Shown one piece after another: positions 36,273-56,875 of a stretch of DNA of 64,000 nt; the first letter of the stretch is position 1, and each line of letters begins with the position of its first letter. This stretch comes from Coniochaeta sp. PMI_546 (taxonomy: Eukaryota > Ascomycota > Sordariomycetes > Coniochaetales > Coniochaetaceae), in the NCBI GenBank assembly GCA_021432605.1, contig MU271151.1, positions 868,001 to 932,000 on the forward strand, written 5' to 3'. The notes beneath the pieces were generated by a model. It made no database searches and was not told the DNA's origin. It saw only the letters and a list, made by a program, of their open reading frames with translations. The position numbers were made by a program, and so were the translations under genes.

Positions 36273-37289
36273 TTACTTTTCCGACCTGTCCGACCTCCCA
36301 GACTCGCTGCTGAAGTCGGTGAAGTCTGTGACTGGAGTTTCGGTACCGGCTATCCCTCCTTTATCGACTCGGAGAATGACATCGTGCAGAATGTCTCCAA
36401 GCTCGCTGACAGTGTCCGCATCTCTCGGTACCAAGTGGCCTAAACCGTGATCCCACAGCATAGCTGTGTCCTGGTTGCACACATTATACAGCGCGACCGC
36501 AGAATACATGAGCGGGTCATTAGAGCCAAAGATATGGACCGTCGGAATGTCGATCACGCTGCTGCACTCATCCGCCAGCTTCGGAGCTATGCTACCATCT
36601 GCTTCGATGGCCAAGGGCGGTGTCCCGGAGAAAAAGATTCCGAACTTCAAAATCACGAACGTCAGTGATCCATGACATGAGAGTGGAAATGCGGTCTGTT
36701 GCTCTCCACGTCTGAGGTGCATTCGTCTAGGACGCATGCTGCTTACCTTGAGTCGCCTGGCCACCTTTTCTCTCACCCACTTGTTGTTCTCCTCGTACAG
36801 TATCGACGCTGCGAGCATAGCGCCCTCGGAGTATCCTAGTATGGCATCGATCTCAGGATCGTTGTCGATTACCTGCCGGATTCGATCCAGGGCGGCGCGG
36901 AACTTCTGCCGGAAATCTTCTGGGACTTTGGAGCCGGGAGTTTGGAATAGCCGCAGAGTAGCCTCGGGGGATAGTCCCCGCGGGAGCTGACGCACCCTCC
37001 GAAGGGCTTCGAATGCATCGTTTTCCGACGAGTCCAAGAATCGGTAGAGGGGTCGGCTGCCGAAGTAATGCTCCCACCCCGCAGGTGGCTCGACCTCATG
37101 CTCGCCTTGTGTGTAGGTGAAAGTTGCAAGTCCTCGAGCCTCCATGTGCTTAGCGAACGGGTCGAGTTGAACGCTGAAATTCTGCGGTAGATCAACCATC
37201 CCGCCATCAGCAAACTGCTTCCAAGCACGGTGAATAGACATTCTTACCTTGCTGCTTCCATAGGCACCCGGCAGACAGAGAAACTTCAT
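36273..37289 (-). CDS. FSH1-family serine hydrolase beside the PKS
   Basis: An alpha/beta hydrolase with start MKFLCLPGAYGSS, nucleophile Ser in GYSEGAML, acid Asp in FGSNDPL and His in DHGLGHLVPRD, the FSH1 (DUF341) triad. An in-frame, stop-free intron at 36746-36645 (GTAAGC, ACTGAC, GAAG acceptor, 102 nt) should be removed, joining RRLK to FGIFFSGTPPL and giving 304 residues. No signal peptide. It is transcribed away from the PKS over an 813-bp shared promoter region. FSH1 relatives such as LovG release products from reducing PKSs that lack a thioesterase. That role is inferred here from position and from the PKS ending in an ACP. Confidence 0.87.
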   Translation of the reverse strand: MKFLCLPGAYGSSKVRMSIHRAWKQFADGGMVDLPQNFSVQLDPFAKHMEARGLATFTYTQGEHEVEPPAGWEHYFGSRPLYRFLDSSENDAFEALRRVRQLPRGLSPEATLRLFQTPGSKVPEDFRQKFRAALDRIRQVIDNDPEIDAILGYSEGAMLAASILYEENNKWVREKVARRLKVSSMRPRRMHLRRGEQQTAFPLSCHGSLTFVILKFGIFFSGTPPLAIEADGSIAPKLADECSSVIDIPTVHIFGSNDPLMYSAVALYNVCNQDTAMLWDHGLGHLVPRDADTVSELGDILHDVILRVDKGGIAGTETPVTDFTDFSSESGRSDRSEK

Positions 37290-38102
37290 TGTGGCTTGTC
37301 CTTGCTCTTACCTCAATGTCCTGGTCGGTAAAACCTACAGAGTGATTACCTTCACGATGCAAGTCTTCAGGGGCTTGGCTGTTATGATGTGTGTCCTCCA
37401 CGAATGGTTGAGCTCACGCCGCCCACACAAGCCATTGGAGGAACTGTCAGTCTTTATGGCCGTTCACTTGTGTGTGGACGTCATTCAGACCTTCTGAGAT
37501 GCATCCCAGCGGATCATGCATCCCATAGTTTGTCAGGGTTCAACGAGTCCCTGAAGGCAACTATGCTTATGCAACAGGTTCAACATATGCCAAGCGGAAC
37601 TCTCCTGGGGAAGGACCGTAGTCGAGGATGTCTTAGCCTCTGAGTTCGCGACTTTTGAGTTTACAATTTTGTCCTGTCACCCAACTACTTCTTATCTTCA
37701 GGCTTCGGACCGTCAATGTGGAATCAGGGCCTTGCAGGAAAGTGTAATTGCCCCTGTCACTGCGGCTAACCTTAGGAACATCTTCGTTGCGAAGCGTCGC
37801 TGTACCAAAGTATGTACCTTATCCTGTTGACCGTTGTCTGATCACGCAACCCGAAGATGAGGCCAAACAGGCAGCTGTTGAATGCTGCCGGCTCTGTTTC
37901 ATTGATCAGGCGACGGAAGCAACCAATCGCTCACTGAAAGTGGCAAACTTTGAGATACTGAGATGAATTAGCTAAATCTTGAGCACAAACAACAGGTCTT
38001 GGCTGATAGCATATATGACACCTATTGCCATGATCGAGAAGACCCCTGTTTGCTCATCACCATCAATCGTTCTGGTCAACCCGTCTTTCGTTTACATCAA
38101 TC
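37290..38102. promoter_or_regulatory. Bidirectional promoter between FSH1-type hydrolase and PKS
   Basis: The 813 bases separate two divergent start codons. No ORF with a domain occurs within it. Its position implies shared regulation of the hydrolase and synthase. I could not identify a specific operator; no Zn2Cys6 regulator gene lies between the flanking housekeeping-type genes. Confidence 0.55.
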
Positions 38103-41100
38103 ATGGCCGCAGACGCAGAGCTGATGCCCATCGCCATCGTAGGCATGTCCTGCCGCCTTCCGGGAGATATCACCACTCCAGGCGAGTTCTGGAAGCTCTT
38201 GACCAAGGGTCGAAGCTGTTGGTCACCGATACCGAAGGACCGATTCAATGCCGCCGCTTACCACCACCCCAACCCGGAGAAGAAGGGGACCATGAACTCG
38301 CAGGGTGGTTATTTCTTGTCCCAGGACCTCGGGTTGTTTGACGCCGGTTTCTTCGATATGACAAAGAAGGAGGCCGAGACGATGGGTGCGTATATGATAT
38401 ATCTGCGCTTTGACGCCCAACCGAATCTCCAAAGTGACTAAATGCTTGTGCTAACTTCAGTTTCGTGGAGATCCCATACAACGTATTCTACTTGAATGCA
38501 GTTACGAAGCTCTGGAGAATGCAGGCATCCCGAAAGAGGACATCGCAGGCAAGAAAGTCGGTGTCTTTATTGGCTTGCCAGATATGGAGCACAGGATGGC
38601 CAACCTTCGTGATCTGGAAGACGTCCCGATGTTTGACCCCACCGGGGCCCAGGGAGCTTTTTTGGCTGGCCGAATTGCATACTACTTCGACCTTCGCGGG
38701 CCTACCCTTGCGATTGATACGGCATGTTCGTCAAGTATGCAAGCCCTACATCTTGCGGTCCAAAGTATCCGAAGCGGAGAGTCGGAACAGGCGATTGTGG
38801 GTGCATCGCATATCATCACCCAACCTGACGTCTGGGTTTCAATGGCCAAGCTGAGGTGCGAGACTGGCTTCCTTGGGACTGTATTTTGCTTTGGCCAACA
38901 TAGTGACTGACAAGGGCAGGTTATTCTCTGAATCAGGCAAGACACATGCCTTTGACCATCGTGCCAAGTCCGGTTACGCCAGAGGTGAGGGAGTGGGATG
39001 CCTAGTCTTGAAACCTTTGCATCAAGCCGTGGCCGATAATGACCATATTCGAGCCGTCATCGTCCAGACAGGCATAAGTCACAACGGTAGGACGGTTGGT
39101 AAGTGCTCAGCGGCTCCTTGACGAAGCTTGGCCACGAAGCGTCGGAACTGACACCAATATGGCTCGCCAGGCATTGTTGCACCTAGCTTGGAGGAGCAAG
39201 AGTCCTTGATACGACGAGTACTCGAGCAAGCCCAGATCGACCCTAAGGATATTGCCTTCTTTGAGGCACATGGTACTGGAACCAAGGTTGGCGACCCGAT
39301 AGAAGCGAGAGCTATCTACAGGGCGGTAGGAAGGAGCTTGACCCCTCGAGAGCCCCTGCATATTGGGTCAGTGAAGTCCAATATCGGCCATCTTGAGAAC
39401 GCCAGTGGCATCATATCCGTCATAAAGGCTGCACTGATGCTTGAGAAGAGTTTCATTGTCCCAAATGCGGATTTTGAGAGCGCGAATGCCGCCATTCCGC
39501 TGTCCAAATGGAACATGAGAGTTAGTGGTACAAAAGCGTCGGTGCTTGATTTGAGGACACAGAGCTGAACGGTTGACTAACTGAAACTTTGTTCCCGCCT
39601 AGATACCGAAAACTCAGCGCCCATGGCCCCTGAAAAAAGAGTACGTCTGCGTGAATAACTTTGGATACAGTGGCTCGAATGGACACGCTGTGCTCAGGCC
39701 AGCGCCGCAGCGGACTTCGATTGAGTACTTCGACCCTGCCAAGGATCATGAACGGATCATGGCTAAGCGCCTGTTCGTTCTGAGCGCCAATGACGAGACC
39801 GCTGTCCGGAAGAGCATGGAAAAGCTGGGGATATTCCTCGAGCAGCATGCGGAGCTGTACCAGACAACGATGCCTCGAAACTTGGCATACACACTCTGCC
39901 AGCGCCGGTCACACATGCCCTGGCGCGTAGCTCTCGTCGCGAACATGTGCTCCTCCCTCGCTTTGGCCCTCAACAGCCATGACGCCGTGCCCAGGCGCAC
40001 GCCTGCCCACAGCCCCAGAATCGCATTCGTCTTCACTGGACAAGGTGCGCAATGGCATGCTATGGGACGCGAGCTGCTCAACTCTCACCCTGCCTTTGCT
40101 TCGGCTATCCAGCGAGCTGATAGTCATCTAATGGCTATTGGCGCCAACTTCTCCATCGTGGAAGAGCTGACCCGCCAGGAGAAAGAGTCGCTTGTCGGCC
40201 TTGCGCATATCAGCCAACCTATTTGTACGGCTGTGCAAATTGCTTTGGTTGATCTCCTGTCGGCATGGGGTATTAGGCCATGTGCAGTGACGGGCCATTC
40301 GAGTGGCGAGATTGGCGCAGCATATGCCTCCGGCGCCCTGACGCTGGAATCGGCCATATCTGCAGCTTATTTTCGTGGCCAAGTCATTATCGAGCTACGA
40401 CAGAAGTATCCCGACCTTAAAGGGGCCATGCTGGCAGTCGGTGCAGGGGTGCGTGAGTGCGAATCGCTCTTCAAGATACTACAGCATCCGTTACAAGCTG
40501 TGGCCGCTTGTGAGAATTCACCGGAGTCAACCACAGTCTCAGGTGATGCTGAAGCGATTGACCTGTTGGCGTCTCTTTTTCAACAAATGGGTATATTCAA
40601 CCGGAAGCTGTTTGTGGATGTGGCGTATCATAGTCCGCACATGACACTTATTGCTGAATCGTACTACAAAGCGATTTCTGGTATTCGACTTCGCGAGACA
40701 CAGTCCGACGTTGCCTTCTACTCAGCTGTACGGGGGCGGAAGGTCGTAACGAATGAACTAGGTCCCCAGTACTGGGTCGATAATCTCACACAGCCCGTCC
40801 GCTTTTCCACGGCGCTGCAGGCCCTCTGGACGGGGAGCGAGCCGGATATCCTGGTTGAGGTTGGGCCACATGCTGCTCTCAAGGGTCCCATCATGCAGAC
40901 CCTCAAGAACTTGGGTATCCCGCAGGCAAAGTTCCCGAGATATCTGCCGACTCTTGTCAGAGGTCGCGATGCCACCGAAACCTGCTTGGAACTTGCTGGG
41001 CAGCTGTACATGCGCGGGTACGACAAGCTCAACTTCTTTAGCATAAATCACGAGCGGGCTGAAGTGGATACACCAGAGGTGATCCCAGCGTTATACTCAT

Positions 41101-44100
41101 ATCCTTGGTCCCGCCAACGATGCTGGTACGAGAGCCGCATCTCGCAACAGCATCGGTTCAAGCCCTTCCCCCGGCACGACCTCCTTGGTACACTCGCCGA
41201 CTGGAGCAGCGATTTGCAACCGACGTGGCGCAATATCATCAGGCTTGACGACCTACCCTGGCTCCGCGACGCTCGGGTCCGTGACAGGATTGTGTTCCCG
41301 GCCTCGGCCTTCATATCCATGGTTGTCGAGGCCGCCAGTCAACGAGCCGTACTTTTGGGTGTGGAGGAGCATGTAGGCGCATTCGACATTCAAGACATGT
41401 CCATTGACCAACAACTGTTCTTAGAGGATGGAAACGGCACCGAGGTCCTCTTGCACATTCGCGAGTCAGAGAAGTTTGGTGGCCACCAAGACGAGTTTCA
41501 AATTACGAGCTTTGAGGAGAAGCGTGGATGGGTAGCAAATTGCCACGGCTTCATTATTGCAAAGCCAATACGGAACGCCAGCGCTTCGACCATCCAGACC
41601 GAAATGCGTCGCCGTCCCGCGCCGCGTCCCCTTGATGCTACTTCAGGGGCCCATTTCTACCTCAATATGGCCTCCGCTGGAGTGAGATACCCACGTGGCT
41701 TCATGAGCATCGTCGGTGTTTGGACCGACGACAAGGGTGCTGTTGCCCAAGCTTGCGTCCAGGATACGCGTCTTGATATGCCGTTGGGATACGAATCGAC
41801 GTATCTGGTGCATCCTACTATTCTCCACTCTATGATTCAACTTGCGGATTCCAACATGGGATTCGGCAGCGACGCCGTACCCCGTCTGCCGTCCCACTTT
41901 CGCTATATCCAAATCCAACTAGATGATCGGTGGAAACGGACCGCGGGTTCGAGATTCGCGTTGCAATCAACGCGGGCTACAAGTGCAGACTCCTTTCTAG
42001 TCGAGCTGTTTGCCACAGCTGACGCTGAAACACCATCCATATCGATGTTGGGACTCGAACATTCTTCCTGGGAGACATCGACGACCCAGTCAGCGGACCC
42101 CAGAGAGCTGTGCTATAAGATCGAATGGGAACCCACTGCACAGCGACAAGCTAAGGAAGAGGACGCACAACATACAGGGCTGCAAGGCAAACGTGTCGTG
42201 ATTGTCACAGACCGACCACCAAGTGACGATCTCGTGGGCTCGTTGCTTTGCGCTTCCCAGTCACACACCGGCCTTTCTCCAAGAATCTCGAGCCTGCTTG
42301 ATGTGCACGACTACAGTGGCTTCTTTATCGTCCTGATAGAGCTCGATCGCAGCCTTTTGAGCTCTATCAGTGAGGCAGAGTGGCAGGCTGTCCGTAATCT
42401 GGTGACCCGCTGCGCTGGACTGTTATGGGTGACAGTCGGTGCCTCGAGGGTCCCTACCACACCAGACTCGAATATGATATTGGGTCTGCTCCGTACTGCC
42501 CGTTCAGAACTTGCTTGCATGGCTGCCACCATTGATCTCGACCCGTTCAGCGATCTCGAACCAGAGGCGCAAGCGGAATTGATCGACGATGTATTCAGAC
42601 GCGCAGTGCTATCGAATGACCCTTCAGCGGAGATGGAGTTTGGGGAGCAGGATGGCACTCTGGTTGTTCCATGCCTCGCCGTGGACGCAGACATGAACTT
42701 AAGAGTGCATCGCGAGCTGGGCAAAGCCAGACCATACCTGCAGAGCTTCCGGCAGCTCGGAAGGCACCTCCGCCTCAAGTTCGAGACTGCGGGATCTCTC
42801 GACTCACTCTATTTCGACGATGATACTTCGGCTAATGAGGAAATAGATGACCACGAGGTTGAGATCGAAGTAACCGCTACTGAGTTGACTAACGATGACG
42901 TCCCTCTACCTCTCCCTGGGACGTCGCCGACTTTTGTGGCTAGGCCGTGCAGCGGAGTCGTGTCGAGACTTGGCGTCAAAGTCAGCAACTTTTCCGTCCA
43001 CGACAGAGTATGTTGCCTCGCGGAAGGCGTCCTGGGCACGCACATACGAGTCCACGAAAGCAGCTTGGTACGCCTCCCCGACGATCTGGATTTCTCAACC
43101 GCAGCCACGCTCCCTCTGGTGTATACCACTGCATGGTATTCTCTGGTGGTCTTGTCACGTGTCAAAAGAGGCGAACGTGTCCTTGTTCAACTGAATGGAG
43201 ACTGTGGACTTGCGGCTATACACATCGCGCGAAGCCTTGGTGCTAAAGTCTTCGTTGCGGCCGAGAGCAGCAAAGCGACTGAGGAAGCCTTGCAGACGTC
43301 GGGAGTACCGATCACCCACGTCTTTGACCCCTCGAGCATTCACTTCTCTCGACTGATCAGCACCCTCACGAATGGAACTGGCATGGATATTGTCTTCACG
43401 TCCACACACAGATCTCAAGCCTCGGTCAGAGAGCTGGAGAAAATATGGGCTACTGTAACTCCATTTGGTCGGGTGGTTCATGCTCGCGGGGGACAAGAGG
43501 GCGAGCATCGTCGTGCCGCGACTGCAAGCATCCAAGAGAATGCGAGCGTTGCTACTGTCAACATGCTTACACTGGGAGCCAGAAGACCTCATATCGTTGC
43601 GAATGCCTTGCGAGATGTTATGGAGTGGTTCACGCAGGAGGATAGATCCAGGTCAATGGGCAGACTGCTCGTGTTGCCGATGGCGAAGCTGAAGGACGGG
43701 CTGTTGCTCGCTCTGAAACAGCCGCTGGGTCACGTCGTTGTTGTCTCGCAAAGCAACGATCCTGTGAAGGTGATTTCCCTTCTTTACCCCTACATATGCG
43801 CTGTTGAGTGGTTGAACATGAGCTGAGCCGTAACTCAGATATCCCATCCGCGGCTGACTTGCCTGCTCGATGCCAAAGGCACGCATATCATTATCGGAGG
43901 GACCGGTGGTCTGGGCCGGAGCATAACGCGATGGATGATCGAACACGGCGCTCGCCACATCGTTCTGGTCTCGAGAAGTGGCAGCCAGGACATAAAAGTG
44001 CAGCAACTTCTCGATGAAGTCCTTGGGGTTGCCGCTGTTCGTGTCATAGTATGTGACATTGCCGACGAGGAGCAAGTGCGGAGGCTTGTAGAGACATGTT

Positions 44101-45039
44101 CTAGGACAATGCCCCCAATTTGCGGGGTCGTCAATGCTGCAATGGCCCTTCATGTCAGTCTCCATAACATTCGCAACTGCGGCCTACGCCCTGGAGCTCT
44201 GCTAATCGTGGTTTCAGGACGGCCTACTCGAGGACACGACATACGAAGCGTACGAAGCTACCGTCCGGGCTAAGGTGACAGGTACATGGAACATCCACAA
44301 TTCCTTGGAAGCCGTGAATGCGCAGCTCGACTACTTCGTTCTCCTTTCCAGCGCGGCTGGTATACTAGGAAGTCGTGGCCAGGCAGCGTACGCAGCCGCA
44401 AGCACGTTCCTTGATTCATTCGCAGCCTATCGCTGTCACGAAGGGCTTCCTGGCGTGTCTCTGGACCTGACCGCGGTCACCGGAGCGGGCTACGTTGCAG
44501 AGAACAGCGCTCGTGCTGAGGACATCTTGAGGAACTTTGGTGGCGAAACCGTGTCTGAGGCCGAGGTACTGGCCTTGCTGGGTCTCGCTGTATCCGGCTT
44601 GGTACCACATCACTGCCTGACGGGGCTGAAACTTGTCCCCAACGCGGCTGGGGCCTTACCTTATTATGCAGAAGACCCCCGATTTGCACATCTAGCGGCA
44701 AGCGCTATAGCGGAGGATATATCCTCGTCTTCTGCCGAGCCTGGGAAGCCGATATCGTTCGGTGCGGCGTTCCGGTCCGCGAAGACTGAGGCACATGCTT
44801 GTGAAATCGCAGTTCAAGCCGTGCAGCACAAACTGTCCGACGTTCTCTCCGTGGGCCTGCAGGACGTCGATGCTGCGCGAAGCATGACATCATATGGGCT
44901 GGACTCTCTGACTGCCATAGAGGTGCGAAACTGGATCGCGCGGGAGCTTCGGGCGAACTTACAGATCCTGGAGTTGCTGACTAGCGGGTGTGTGAACGAC
45001 TTGGCAGCGCTGATCGTCAGTCGAGCAGCGAAGACTTAG
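38103..45039 (+). CDS. Highly reducing polyketide synthase (KS-AT-DH-ER-KR-ACP)
   Basis: Seven exons: 38103-38385, 38471-38855, 38920-39098, 39171-39520, 39603-43769, 43839-44153 and 44218-45039, giving 2166 residues. KS has Cys in DTACSSS, EAHGTGT and GHLENASG. AT has FVFTGQGAQ and GHSSGE. The DH double hotdog lacks its catalytic His (Ala956 in WLRDARV) and Asp (His1141 in HPTILHSM). A noncatalytic linker replaces any C-methyltransferase. The ER core is present (LPLVYTTAWYSL) but the cofactor loop reads NGDCGLAA instead of the usual GGxGxAA. KR keeps GGTGGLGRS, LLSSAAG and Tyr1951. ACP has GLDSL with Ser2123. There is no thioesterase. The product is unknown; reduction beyond the hydroxyl looks doubtful. 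It is shorter than typical 2300-2600-residue members. Confidence 0.92.
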
Positions 45040-47062: not shown

Positions 47063-50000
47063 TTAGACTGGTAACGAAGCCCGTTTCTGGTACAGGTTGA
47101 GCCTCAAAGAGCCGCCGCAGAACTCGCTGGAATTCCCGCGACACGGCTTGTTGCACTGAGACTCCGTGACATTGCCACCAGGGGTGGCTCCCGCGTTGCC
47201 TGCCCAATTTATCGAGTTGTCGCACCAACACTCCCCAGAATACTCCAATCCAACAAAAGTATACATGTAGCACTGCGAGAGGCAAGATTCGACCGTCGCG
47301 TTGGCTAGGTTGGACACCTTGTTCTTGAGCAGTCGCCCGGACGAGGGCTCCGAGACACAGTGATAGTACGTGAAGTTGACGTTGCCCGGTACCGTCACCG
47401 GAGGGCCCGTGTACACGCTTGGGGCTGCAGATGTGGTCGACGAGGAGGTGGACGAGGAAGAGGAAGCCGGGGTGGATGTACTCGAGGACGATGTCCCGCT
47501 ACTGGTCGTGCTGCTTCTGGTGCTACTAGTGCTACTAGTGCTAGTGGATGAGGATGAGGATACACTTGAGGTAGTAGATGTCGCTAATGTGGACGAAGTT
47601 GACGAAGTGGAGGTGGTCGAGGTCGAAGATCGCGTTGACGAAGTAGACGAAGACGATACCCCGCTGCTGCTGGCTGTGGTCGTAGAAATAGTGGATGTAC
47701 TGCTGGATGACGATGAGGATGCGCTTGAGGTGCTCGTCCGGCTGGTGCTGGTCGAAGTGGCCGAGGTGCTGCTGGTCTGAGCAGCATTCGAATAAAGCTC
47801 GAGCCTGTTTCCGGCACCGCAGTACTCGGTAGAATCGCCGCCGCACACCATTTTGCAGTCGGCCAGAGGGGCCGAGGTGCTCGTGCTGTCCAGAGTGTTC
47901 CCGCAATAGCACTCCCGGCCGTACTCGGCTCCGAAATAGACGAATCCTGCGCAGTTGGCCATACAGCTCTCGAGCGTCATTCCATCGTACGCAAATGTGG
48001 CGCCCTTCAACGCGCGGGTACCTTGGCCCTCTGTCCAGCAGCCGACCAGGTTGTACGCTCCCATCTTTGCCCTGTGGCTTAGAGTAGGCACTGCCGACGT
48101 GCTGCTAGATGTTGTGGCCGAGGTCGTGCTGGACGATATAGACGACGAAGAACTGCGGGAAGTTGTGGAAGTTGTGGACGCCGAGGTAGATACGGACGAC
48201 GTGGACGAGGCCGCGGCCTTCAGATAGAGCTCCAGCCTGTTTCCTGCTCCGCAATACTCAGAGGGATCCCCTGGGCATAGGAAAGAGCAGTCATTCTGGT
48301 TCGCTGCTTTGACACTGCCTGCGTTAAGAGTGTTTCCGCAGTAGCCTGTCCATACACGTCAGTATATCGCCCCCTCGGCTAGGCTGGATCACGAGGGAAA
48401 CTCACATTCACGGCCATACTCAACACCGAAGTACGCGTAGTCAGCGCAGAAGGTAGAGCAGGATTCGAGTGTCATGGCATCGTCAGCGTAGGTCTTGCTG
48501 GACAAAGCGCGGGTCGAGGTAGCTTCGGTCCAGCAGCCCTGGAACTGCCAGGAAGTGCCCACGGTCTGCTTGATGGCAGGGCCTGTCGGGGTAGGACTTG
48601 CGCTGGTGGAGACCGTGGTGGAGGACACTGTGCTGGTAGATACCGTGGTGGTGGAGACGACGACCGTGCTGCTAGAGGTTGTGCTAGTAGAGCGTGTCGA
48701 GGTAGAGCTCGTGCTAGTGGAACTTGACAGGGCAGTAGCATTGAACTGGTAGACGTTGAGCCTGCTTCCTGCGCCGCAGTACTCGCTACTATTGTCTGTA
48801 TAGTTGGTCAGAAACGATATCCGAGGGAATAAAGTAGAGGCATATGGCTTGGTGCTCACCGGCACAGGGCATGTTACAGTCCCCAATGCTTGTCGAGACG
48901 GACCCTGTGGAAAATGCATTGGCGCACCAACACTAAACTTGTTAGTAATATTTACATAATAGGTAAAAGTACTAAAAGTAATTACCTCGCCACCGTACTC
49001 CAGACCGACCAAGGTGTATTTGGATTCGCAGGCTTTGATACAGCTGGCAACAGTCTTGGTCGTGACAGCTACTCCGTTCACGAGAGCTCGCATTCCGGTG
49101 GCCTCGGTATAGCAACCGATACTTGCATACCCATCAATTCCAGGATTAACACTGATTCCAGGCGTTGTGGTAGTGCCCCCACCACCATTGAGAGTATCGC
49201 GGAACACCGAGAGATAGGCGCCCCCGGCGTTGGCCCCCACGCCGTTGCCACCGCAGACCTGATTGAGGTCGCCAGCACAAGGGTAATTGCAGTTTGCGTC
49301 GTCCACCTGAAGAGTCGGTATGTTCGCTCCGGCGAAACACTCCTTGTTGTATTCCGTTCCGCAGTAAGCGTAGTTCCCGTTGGCACAAGCAGCGATGCAC
49401 ATGGCGTTAGTGTTGGCGTCGTTGCTGTACAGCTGTGTGGGCAGCTGGCGGCCGGGGTTGTTCTCCTTGAAGCAGCCCACATAGCGGTAGCGGCCCAGAC
49501 CATTGGAGAGCAGCGGCGGAGCTTGTTCTGAGACGGCCAGACAGGAAAATTGAATAAACTGCTTGCCCCAGTTGGGATCGTTGGTGTTCATGGTCCACTG
49601 GGCATTGCCGGAGTACGGCTCCACATTCCACTGTTCCTTGGGCACGGAGCAGTAGAGCGTCGCCGTCTGGCTCTCGCCGGGACCCAGAGTCGTGCCCTCT
49701 CCGAGATCGACCTGGTTGTTGGCCCCGATGATACCACTGACCCCGAAAGGCGGCTTGGAGACGGTCACCGACAACTCAGTCGCGCCGGCACCGCCAGCAT
49801 TGGTCAAGCGGAGCTTGAGGTACCTTGTTGTGTTCTCCGTTACGTTGCCGAAGGTGAAATTCTGTCCTGGCACATATGTCACCCAACTGGACCCATCGGG
49901 TGTCTGGAATTGGAGAAGAGCCACAGGGGCCTGACCGGAGGAAGCGGTGACCACGAGTGTTTTCGACCCGCCATTGAAGTCCACTACCGCGTAGACAGTG

Positions 50001-52497
50001 TAGTTACCGCTGGTGGTTGGGTTGAAGTTGACAGTCACAGTGGCATCAGAGTTGGCCGCGATGCTGGCTGGTAGGTCCTCGAAGGTGAATGGGCCGACCT
50101 TGGGTCCGGCAGCAGTGGTTTCCGGTGTGATGAACGGTCCGGAGGCGCCTGCCTGGGAATATTTAATGCCCGAGATGGTCAAGACAGAGTTTCCTTCATT
50201 GGAAAACAGCACAGTCTGATTGACACCTCCAGCAGCGGCTCCGGTGATAATCTCCTGGAATGTCAGTGTCAACGGGCTTATGTCAAGCAGAGCGCTAGCA
50301 CTAGACCCAGTTCCGGACAAGCGAACCGGAGTGTTCACACTGTAGCCGGCCACGTTGTTTGTAGTACCGATAGTGACACTGGTTGACAACAGGCCGACCT
50401 TGGTGGGCCTGAAATATGCCTTGAAGGTGAAGGAGGCGCCGGCAGCCACAGCGAGCGGGACAGTAGGCAAGGCGTCAAGGCCGAAGTCCGTCGAGTTCAA
50501 GGCAAAACTGTTCACAGTGACAGCAACCTTGGCCGTACAAGTCACTGTTGTCTCGGCAGTCGCAACACCGATCTCAGAAGCGCCGAAAGCGACAGGGCCC
50601 GTGCACTGAAGAGGCGGATTCGTCGGCGCGCCGAAAGCATATACATAACCTTGGGTCGTGCCTTGGTAGACGATGCCATCACCGAACACGGGTCTGGTGA
50701 ATTTAGTGACTCCGGGCACAGTGAACGACTTGACCAAGGTTAGCAAGCCACCGTTCGGTATCGCGTTGTAAATGCGGAGACTGGCCCCCTGCACGTCGCT
50801 CGTCCAGACAAGACCTGTACCGGGCTGGCCGAGAGAGGTGACTGTACCGTGACCGACACCGAGGATGCCGGCGTTATTTGTAGGGCTGTCGGCCACTTTG
50901 GTGAACGAAGGTACGCCGTTTGTGCAAGAGAACTTGAACACGTGACTCGGGTAGTTGATGACTGTATGAGGGTCAGCCTTGGGTGCTTCGCAAGTACATG
51001 GCCTTCCTGATCCGAGAAGGGCCAAGGGTTACGCAAGGGCCGTGCTGCAGTGCAACTTACCATTGATGTAGATATAACCCCCTTCCAACGGGTATACACC
51101 GGCACCAGCATACACAGAGTTCTCGTTCTGGTACACCTGAATAACCGCATCGCCGCTGTTTGGTCCATTGCGGTACCCTCCAAGGTTGTCTAGGTTCAGC
51201 CAGTACGTCTTGCCGCTCTTACCCGTGACGACACCGATGCGCCTGACATCTCCACAAGAGAAGGTGCTAGGCAGTATCTCCAGGGGACTCGTTCCCAAGT
51301 CCTTGTCAGCACCGTCCAGCGCCTGCTTCTCCTGGGGCATGAAGAAGTCGACAATGGTGAGGCTCCCGTCTCCGTTGATCGTCATGTGGACAGCCGCTTC
51401 TTCCAAGCTCGTCGGGGGATCTCGACCTGAAACTGGCACGGTAGCAAGCTGGGAGGCGTAACCGTTGCCAGTAGCGAAGAACATGGAGCCGGCATCGTCG
51501 GAGGCAAGTCCTCCGCCGGACATCCACACACCACCTCCGGGAGTGGTATTGGGCACACCTGCGCCCTCCGTAGCCCACCTCTCCACGTTGGCGCCGGTCG
51601 TCTTGTCCCAGCCCATGATCCAGCCGGTGAAGTTACTGGGGGTTGACGTCAGGGTCAGTCCCTCGGGCTCGCGCCACACGGAGGAGCACTTACTATTGGA
51701 CGCAATGCGAAGCGAAGCCGGCATATATGAACTGGCCGGAATGGAGCAGGGCCGGGCGCTGGTGATGGATGCCGCCATTGAAGCTCCGTGAAGGGTTGTT
51801 CCTCGCGACCGTCCCCTCGAGATTCACAGGAAAGTTGGGCCGTTCCGAGAGGTCGTTGACGTTGAGCGCATGCAGATAATACCGCCCGTTCGGCTTGCCC
51901 TGGGCGCCGTTGCCTCCGTTCTGGTTGGCGTACGTCTTGGCTGTGAGATAGAGCGTATCGGTGTCAGGGTCGATCACGCCCGTGGAAGTGATTCCAACAA
52001 GAGGATTGATATCGACACAGCCGTCGAGGTCAGCGGTCAGAAAGGGGATGTGCAGGTTTCTAGAGGCGACAATGGCACCCGTTTTGGCGTTCAGCTTGTA
52101 CACGTTGTTCTGTGTCGTAGCAAAGTAGACGTACTGCACCCCGTCGGAAGGAGTGTAGACGAGCGGCTGCGAGAAGATCTGCTCGCTGGCACCGTTGTAA
52201 TTGCCCGGCAGCAGGACCTTGAACAGCTGAGCGAATTGGTCACTCCCGACCACCGACGGATCCATATTGTGGTTCCTACATCACGAGCTTGCTCGTCAGT
52301 TGCCCCGAACTTGGTTGGACGCGGTGTAGAGCAACGGCACGACGGCGCGATTACAGAACTCACGTTTGGTAGCCCGCTCTCGTATTGTCTCCGCCCCAGG
52401 TAATGGTATCGGTCGACGCAAGCGAATGGACGAGGCCAGCAAAGGCCGTCAACAGCACCAAGGCCGCGGCAGCGATGGTCGATGCCATCTTGGACAT
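47063..52497 (-). CDS. Secreted PQQ-propeller, Ig-like, five-WSC-domain protein
   Basis: Seven exons: 52497-52364, 52275-51694, 51635-51061, 50961-48986, 48932-48860, 48795-48406 and 48345-47063, giving 1670 residues. A signal peptide (to about 27) is followed by a PQQ/quinoprotein-like beta-propeller to about 535, with blades such as QYVYFATTQNNVYKLNAKTG and GKTYWLNLDNLGG. Ig-like ASPM/SPD-2/hydin-type modules span about 540-915. Five WSC domains begin near 920, 1040, 1196, 1338 and 1570, separated by Ser/Thr-rich linkers. WSC domains bind glycans; no quinoprotein metal or cofactor residues could be verified. There is no TM span or GPI signal at the C-terminus (ends KRASLPV), so the protein is probably secreted or wall-held. 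WSC2 is split by two introns. Confidence 0.85.
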
Positions 52498-54966: not shown

Positions 54967-55413
54967 TCAGACTTTGATGCCAGCAACAGGACAAGTGCCA
55001 TGCGTATGGCTTATATCCGGATGCCCGACAATCTTGCCCTTGTGATGCCCGACCTTGGCCTTTGTAACAGGACACTCGGCGTCGTCACCCTTGCCTTCGG
55101 TGCTGGGATGATCCGGAGGCAGCACTGTCGTAGCCGTGCCCACGACCGGACAGACGTCGTCGTCCATCTGCTGACTCTTTGGCTCCTGCACCACCTTCTT
55201 CAAGGCCGGGCAGGCCGAGGCATCATGGGGCGACTTGTCGTCCGGAATGGGCACGGACGGGTGCTTGTGTAGGTTGTGGTGGTGGTCTGTCGATGCTCCA
55301 ACGACTGGGCAGGTCTGGCCTGGGCGGGAGAGGTCGACATCGGGGTGCGAGGGCGGTAAGGTGCTATTGGTGGTGCCTACGACGGGGCAGACTTGCGACT
55401 CGGAAGCGGACAT
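54967..55413 (-). CDS. Two-module Cys-Pro/His-Pro repeat protein
   Basis: Single exon, 148 residues, ATG at 55413. Two tandem modules of about 65 residues share the order CPVVGT, LPPxHP, CPV, HH, HP, CP. Cys-Pro pairs are at 9, 35, 68 and 88, 114, 141; His-Pro pairs are at 23, 51, 102 and 131. C9-H23 and C88-H102 are both 14 apart; C9-C35 and C88-C114 are both 26 apart. All six cysteines are followed by Pro, as in heme-regulatory motifs, and His residues surround them. No signal peptide, TM span or enzyme domain. I do not know a named family; heme or metal binding is inferred from composition alone. The internal duplication argues strongly that it is a true gene. Confidence 0.8.
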   Translation of the reverse strand: MSASESQVCPVVGTTNSTLPPSHPDVDLSRPGQTCPVVGASTDHHHNLHKHPSVPIPDDKSPHDASACPALKKVVQEPKSQQMDDDVCPVVGTATTVLPPDHPSTEGKGDDAECPVTKAKVGHHKGKIVGHPDISHTHGTCPVAGIKV

Positions 55414-56142
55414 GACTGCTCCTGTTGATGCTGGGCTCGGAAGAATTGTGCTGAGACTGATCGATTCTTGACGAAAGAGGTACTATGCTTGTGTGACTGT
55501 TGATCGTGAGATAGATGCTGTCAGCAATGACTCGATGTTTACCTGAATTCAGTGTGAAGGGGACCATACAGTTCAAAACGTCGGTGAGAGGCAATGACAG
55601 AGAGGGAAGCCGAGTGCGTCGACCTGATCGAGGGAGGTGCTGCCTTTGTAGCTCTTAACCTTTCTTCTGCCTAAGCTCCCCGCCTAAGGTCGGTTCACCC
55701 CGCCAAAGCTCAGCCCCGAGCAGTCATGCGCACCTTGAGACATGACGTAGAGGTGGCCGGCAGCCAATCAGATTGAACCTAAAGGTAATCCCCACCAAGG
55801 AAGGCCTAGTGGGAAGGAGCATTCTTATGCAGTCCTCACAAGTTAGACTGGTTAGGTACCTTATGCCACCTCACTCATCTATGGGCAGATAGGTACGGAT
55901 ATTGATAATTGTTGCTGATTTTGTCTTGATTTTCTTGTCCAAAGCTCGTCTTCCCGTGTCGTTGTACTTCCTTGCTGGATCAAGTCGCAGCACGAATCTT
56001 CCACTTAGGTAGAGTTACCCGTCACCCAACGCTGTCCCAACCCAACTTTATGTCTGCTCAGCCCGCGTCGACTTCTTCCCCTTCCCATCGTTCTAAGCGG
56101 CTAATGATGTTCCTCAGACCATGTCCGCCAATTGCGGGTTTT
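55414..56142. other. Intergenic region upstream of the CP-repeat gene
   Basis: Likely promoter of the CP-repeat gene (minus). It contains an AGGTACCT palindrome at 55854-55861. No gene recognised. Confidence 0.45.
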
Positions 56143-56875
56143 CTAACTGCACACACTAGCGGTTGCTGTCGGCGTACTGATCGGTTGTGTGGTGATGTTA
56201 TCTGGCTTCGGCACGCCCTCAATACCCATCAACTCTGTGTAAAAGACTTTTGTTGCACATTAGCAAGCAGACACACCATTGTGAGGATTGTGGGGATCCT
56301 ACTTAGTGTCGAGTTGGCTGGGATCGGTCCAACAGTGTGGTCGCCATAGCCAAGTCGTGGTGGGATCGTCAACTTCCTATCCTGTCGTCAGTCCTGATCC
56401 ATAGGCTGCTATGGTCCCCACAGGCTGCTTATGCTGCCTCAAGACGCACCTCTTCTCGCCAATGCACATGTCGAGAAGGCCCTGGTCGAATCTGCGCAGC
56501 ACCACTTAGTATCTGATGAGACCCGCAGGCTGGAACGAGTCTCGGTTCGCAAAGAGAACTCACCCTTGGATGACCTCACCTGCCCCGAGGTTGAAGCTAA
56601 AAGGTCCCTCCGAGTCCTGGCCGTAGCCTGCGCCGCAATATCAGTATACAACAGTCGTGTCAGCCGCGACACTCTGGAATGAACGCACTGGAGTCGAACT
56701 CAGTTCCGTTCGTGAATGTACCGCGGTAGTTCACGGATATCGAGTCTCCTGCGTGAGTCTTCCGGTCGCACACAACAGACAAGGTGACTTCGATTTTGAG
56801 GTCCGAATCCTGTCCAAGGACCGCCGTCAAGCAGCCAGTGAGTGGGAGCGCAAACACGCAACTGGAGGCACGCAT
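56143..56875 (-). CDS. FKBP-type peptidyl-prolyl isomerase, secretory pathway
   Basis: Five exons: 56875-56689, 56627-56564, 56491-56450, 56376-56303 and 56246-56143, giving 156 residues. All exons are short, so no long frame reveals the gene. The N-terminal signal peptide MRASSCVFALPLTGCLTAVLG is followed by an FKBP2-like domain: LKIEVTLSVVCDRKTHAGD, VNYRGTF, GTEFDSSYG, FNLGAGEVIQGFDQGLLDM, GEKRKLTIPP, LGYG and LIFYTELMGIEGV. FKBPs isomerise Xaa-Pro bonds and bind FK506; ER members help secretory folding. The pocket-floor Trp (usually GW after EVI) is Phe here, seen in other active FKBPs. The tail is Thr/Ser-rich and lacks an HDEL-type retention signal. Introns are 56-73 nt, with GTGCGT, GTGAGT, GTGCGT and GTAGGA donors. 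Confidence 0.9.

Follow-up and report, generated by a model that had tools for sequence, protein, structure and literature searches.

The open reading frame (ORF) at 54967-55413 of the 64,000-nucleotide window, the whole stretch of DNA analysed here, encodes a protein built from two copies of a Cys-Pro/His-Pro (CP/HP) module, and its sequence is best read as that of a small soluble, disordered, domain-less heme-binding protein with multiple CP motifs, a tentative reading to which we assign a probability of about 0.42. Heme binding by this protein is plausible, not established. The preliminary description of this DNA had proposed a duplicated CP/HP module unaccompanied by any other recognised domain, and searches of Pfam and NCBIfam together with an alignment of one half of the protein against the other found the duplication to be real.

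Each of the six cysteines (residues 9, 35, 68, 88, 114 and 141) is followed by proline, as the preliminary description had stated, with CPV at 5/6 of these sites, and the four His-Pro pairs it had counted lie at residues 23, 51, 102 and 131. The six CP units follow one another in the order A-B-C-A'-B'-C' (Table 1). Unit A consists of CPVVGT and then LPPxHP, unit B of CPV with a His cluster and one HP, and unit C is a short CP(A/V) end; every A and B unit thus has one Cys-Pro and one His-Pro, with 14-17 residues between them. The spacings described earlier as matched are identical in the two modules, with 14 residues from Cys9 to His23 and from Cys88 to His102, and 26 from Cys9 to Cys35 and from Cys88 to Cys114. 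Correspondence is looser later in the modules, where second Cys and second HP lie 16 versus 17 residues apart and second and third Cys 33 versus 27. The best-kept block is VCPVVGT....LPP.HP, spaced identically in both halves.

Table 1. Positions of the ORF, its repeat units and neighbouring features in the window
Feature	Position	Strand	Details
Complete ORF	54967..55413	minus	ATG to TGA, uninterrupted, 148 aa / 148 codons
Unit A, module 1	55342..55392	minus	residues 8-24, VCPVVGTTNSTLPPSHP
Units B + C, module 1	55195..55314	minus	residues 34-73, TCPVVGAS...HHH..HP...ACPALKK
Unit A', module 2	55105..55155	minus	residues 87-103, VCPVVGTATTVLPPDHP
Units B' + C', module 2	54970..55077	minus	residues 113-148, ECPVTK...HH...HP...TCPVAGIKV
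Upstream region scanned for iron/heme motifs	55414..56660	minus	1,247 bases
Two adjacent WSC-domain ORFs	47063-51025	minus	two matched stretches each
Highly reducing polyketide synthase	36273-45039		acyltransferase, dehydratase, zinc-dehydrogenase-like, KR and carrier domains

Both the CP enrichment and the internal duplication are beyond chance. Among 200,000 composition shuffles of the protein, none contained six CP and none contained five CPV. At least four HP appeared in 13,243 of them (6.6%), and the number of HP by itself is therefore not striking. Set against window ORFs (12 of the 16 of at least 250 aa, those with a Pfam match at E <= 0.001), CP accounts for 6/6 of the cysteines here versus 4/149 there (Fisher p 1.2e-8), and HP for 4/13 of the histidines versus 11/212 (p 0.006). 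Alignment of the two halves scores 108; of two sets of 5,000 shuffles each, the plain ones peaked at 69 and those preserving CPV, CP and HP as units at 81. The modules share 60 aligned columns, 25 with identical residues and 35 changed, and at 18 of the 25 identical residues the codons differ; synonymous divergence is saturated (pS 0.84) and pN is 0.47. Three aligned CP pairs, two HP pairs, the rest of VCPVVGT, LPP and HH have been kept. Saturated synonymous sites together with the kept CP and HP pairs therefore point to constraint and not to a recent copy, and the internal duplication is old. Since the module alignment is anchored on the kept residues, it speaks for constraint on the gene and is not an independent test of each residue. 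The two halves also differ in codon choice: all three Cys codons are TGC in the first half and TGT in the second, His is encoded by CAC in 6/7 cases in the first and by CAT in 5/6 in the second, and GC3 is 0.79 versus 0.61. The halves may have different histories.

Codon statistics place this frame modestly ahead of the other five. On a codon score trained on 10 window stretches, one of which lacked a Pfam match, the frame reaches 0.145 per codon, the best of six, followed by 0.023 for plus-strand frame 0. GC3 of the complete ORF is 0.705, and its synonymous preference was equalled by 0/2,000 background back-translations. The product has a mass of 15.4 kDa and a pI of 6.2 and contains six Cys, a single Arg and 13 His, with His clusters in HHHNLHKH, HH and SHTH. 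No domain scored above cut-off in Pfam or in NCBIfam, and AlphaFold returned no confident structure (mean pLDDT 39.7, from lone-sequence input, which often yields a poor model). On the strength of these two results the protein's features are consistent with a disordered chain, and we infer disorder in the cell. Two further identities were considered and rejected, namely a secreted peptide precursor (there is a single KK and no hydrophobic N-terminus) and a zinc finger.

Of the possible readings of the six CP sites, heme is the most specific, because the same genome's ALA synthase (ALAS) and heme lyase (HCCS) carry CPF and CPV motifs. The first exon of ALAS contains MCPFMKK and RCPVMGK, and the Pro/Ser-rich N-terminal region of HCCS contains CPVKH and CPVPH. 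The sites CPVVG, CPVAG and CPALKK of the 148-residue protein are most like those of ALAS, with which they share CPxxKK and CPVxG cores. According to the available part of one source, CP motifs occur in the N-terminal region of eukaryotic ALAS, except in yeast, and the yeast heme lyases are Cyc3 and Cyt2 (PMC7140478). The better of two weak Pfam matches was to the ALAS presequence family Preseq_ALAS (PF09029; E 0.001, 19.9 bits against a cut-off of 21), a match reproduced by 0/10 shuffles that kept the CP/HP units; the other, Gmx_para_CXXCG (E 0.23, 11.2 against 25 bits), was set aside. The PF09029 profile searched over this genome at E <= 1 gave no match, neither to this gene nor to the genome's ALAS, and no first-look candidates arose, so that this result is uninformative. 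BLAST of the protein against the N-termini of ALAS and HCCS gave E 0.035 or worse in a two-sequence database with filters off. As BLAST was not significant and Preseq_ALAS stayed below its cut-off, we do not claim homology to ALAS or HCCS. Unlike an ALAS presequence, moreover, the protein is not basic and has no synthase domain. CPV motifs are common to it and the HCCS N-terminus, but those of HCCS have His close behind them, and identity as a heme lyase was rejected on the absence of the lyase domain (PF01265). Two cytochrome heme-lyase loci of the genome exceed the Pfam cut-off, L011 (G000:C20) and L012 (G000:C6), the same number as the Cyc3 and Cyt2 of yeast.

The proposal of a heme sensor, carrier or buffer in the preliminary description is thus partly supported, by the number of CP and CPV sites and by the ALAS- and HCCS-like cores, and is weakened by the immediate surroundings of those sites. 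The Hap1 heme-motif consensus is K/R-C-P-V/I in the accessible text of PMC9491583; V follows CP at 5/6 sites here, but K or R precedes the Cys at 0/6. The nine-mers around the six CP sites carry net charges of, in order, -1, 0, 0, -3, -2 and 0, none positive and three negative; the genome's ALAS and HCCS nine-mers carry +2, +1, +1 and 0. In the portion available of PMC6356037, positive net charge favours heme binding by CP nine-mers as a tendency and not a strict rule, and negative charge around CP is said to inhibit binding in peptide work. An aromatic residue after CP is found in 0/6 nine-mers, compared with 40% of mammalian CP cases, and an aliphatic residue ahead of CP at 4/6 sites (counted by eye), compared with about 87% (mammalian figures from the part of PMC10377097 available). 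CP motifs are described as the best explored heme-regulatory motifs (PMC6356037, PMC10377097, each in extract); taken alone, they are insufficient to show heme binding and often neither bind nor regulate, in the extract of PMC5758875.

If heme is the ligand, several hemes could be bound reversibly through the Cys-Pro thiolates, with the histidine of His-Pro, 14-17 residues beyond the Cys, as a possible second ligand in four units of the six. In the available text of PMC10377097, CP peptides are mostly penta-coordinate, with or without further His, and hexa-coordination needed a nearby His and rose as the His came closer. Histidines of His-Pro at 14-17 residues are therefore possibly no ligand at all. 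The protein would serve to buffer or chaperone heme and, less likely, to sense it: in Hap1, a cluster of six CP motifs is a strong heme binder with no role in heme regulation, as far as the extract of PMC5758875 goes, so that a buffer would fit better than a sensor. We infer both the Cys/His coordination of heme and this cellular role. A bolder version, a 'heme-thionein' in which six Cys-Pro thiolates and the His-Pro imidazole of the A/B units would hold several hemes per 15-kDa chain, seems to us improbable; if true, it would parallel metallothionein, with heme in place of metals.

Known systems offer partial parallels. Several CP motifs stand within one protein here as in the yeast transcription factor Hap1, but here in a chain of 148 residues that has no other domain and, as noted, no basic residue before any Cys. 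The heme-binding regions of Bach1 and Bach2 contain CP motifs, and their disordered regions are parts of large transcription factors. There, too, it is a disordered region that binds heme (according to titles in the reference list of PMC10377097), which resembles the apparently disordered chain described here, although the latter is small and domain-less. Among fungi, the closest functional parallel in the literature surveyed appears to be Hhy1 of Schizosaccharomyces pombe. Heme binding by Hhy1 likewise depends on a CP-type motif: its CPC motif is required for full hemin binding, a change in it lowered hemin affinity 7.4-fold, and a change in the other CP motif was without effect; unlike the present protein, Hhy1 has 463 residues and an amidohydrolase-like domain (all from the portion available of PMC13135908). 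Among the matches listed in a search of mainly open-access literature on the protein's motifs and on fungal CP proteins, none described such a protein in its title or the opening of its abstract. To our knowledge, the known CP-motif proteins carry these motifs on enzymes or transcription factors, and the buffering and movement of labile heme in the fungal cytosol is largely an open question. Should it bind heme, a nearly pure CP/HP repeat protein would be a minimal and easily tested heme carrier or sensor.

We rank heme ahead of two other readings of the repeats. The protein could be a disordered scaffold or regulator in which the repeated CPVVGT and LPPxHP stretches serve as short motifs for docking a partner protein and the cysteines, instead of binding a ligand, take part in redox chemistry or are modified. 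The equally spaced best-kept block agrees with this, since V, G, T, L and PP belong to it besides the possible ligands, and the low mean pLDDT from the single sequence (39.7) agrees as well. However, every aligned CP pair has been kept though 35/60 columns changed, and we know of no docking motif that fits either stretch, which leaves docking unlikely in our judgement. Less likely again is a disordered buffer of zinc, copper or nickel in which all six cysteines and the clustered histidines bind the metal, with CP merely exposing the thiols. A content of 13 His and six Cys in 148 residues and the acidic pI would suit such a role, and neutral or negative CP surroundings may suit metal cations better than heme. 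Against it, the cysteines are 20-33 residues apart, no metal-binding family scored above cut-off in Pfam and none was found in NCBIfam, and the proline after every Cys would be left unexplained. Metallothioneins have their Cys in CC, CxC or CxxC clusters; all three patterns are absent from the protein, and metallothionein was rejected for that reason. If a metal or a partner protein is bound in place of heme, the protein would show how poor a predictor of heme CP motifs are, even when repeated.

We consider it very unlikely that the protein assists mitochondrial heme attachment or the control of ALAS as an accessory factor, operating during import or within the intermembrane space. The CPV and CPALKK cores resemble motifs of the genome's HCCS and ALAS, and the weak Preseq_ALAS match points the same way, but a single Arg and an acidic pI are unlike a matrix presequence, the lyase and synthase domains are absent, and likeness outside the motifs is not significant.

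Searches for relatives of the 148-residue protein covered its own genome, viral contigs, plasmids, the PDB and prokaryotes. In its own genome there is no paralogue, the gene itself being the only true match; a further match on C6 (27% identity, E 0.25, one internal stop) was taken as chance. In viral contigs, 8 stretches matched a pattern with the protein as query and 16 with the 69-column module alignment, 0 being confirmed in either case, and the DNA pattern of the module gave 0 matches. No relative was found among plasmids or in the PDB, where a match at E 0.4 was rejected as beginning in a His tag, and 0/2 prokaryote genomes contained one. In the phylum to which G001 belongs (reached via the Streptomyces locus L017), 1 of 396 prokaryote genomes gave a match, L030, at E 1.1e-4 as calculated for one genome, with at most 15 candidates scored per genome among the matches listed. 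L030 was dropped as chance, since no plus-strand frame of at least 60 residues in it has two CP. These collections are the wrong places to look for a fungal protein, so absence from them means little. That absence agrees with a chance ORF and no gene at all, a reading we find scarcely credible against duplicated modules whose synonymous sites are saturated and amino acids kept, a codon score higher than in any of the other five frames and a synonymous preference reached by none of 2,000 null sequences.

The motifs ATCWGATAA and CSAATN12RWT are iron/heme regulatory motifs. Neither occurs in either orientation in the scanned upstream region, nor does a composite iron site, and this absence, like that of a relative in the collections searched, counts against the heme reading; the same 1,247 bases contain one WGATAR, three of its complement, three ATTGG, no CCAAT and one GAAnnTTC. 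Upstream of the ATG, at 55497-55542 on the minus strand, GTAAAC is followed by CTGAC and AACAG, which fit the intron consensus, and this stretch could be a short 5'-UTR intron. The ORF stands alone, with no other ORF of at least 250 aa close to it. None of the 16 window ORFs scanned belongs to a heme or iron family (4/16 matched nothing), so the genomic context gives no help on function; the domains found include HET, WSC and highly reducing polyketide synthase (PKS), with a fungal transcription factor just under cut-off, a set that points to a filamentous fungus as the owner of this 33.5-Mb genome.

About 1.2 kb upstream lies an FKBP-like stretch (56660-56875, minus strand), a 71-aa frame that stops early. 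It matches G000:C7:1599758-1599913 with 50% identity (E 1.1e-8), adjoining an FKBP_C match at C7:1599402-1599686, and is not itself among the genome's two FKBP_C matches; the frame has the look of a second copy that has been truncated. Downstream, a WSC-domain ORF lies about 3.9 kb away. The highly reducing PKS, about 10 kb from the ORF, has an ORF for an FSH1-type serine hydrolase near it; this is a probable secondary-metabolite cluster.
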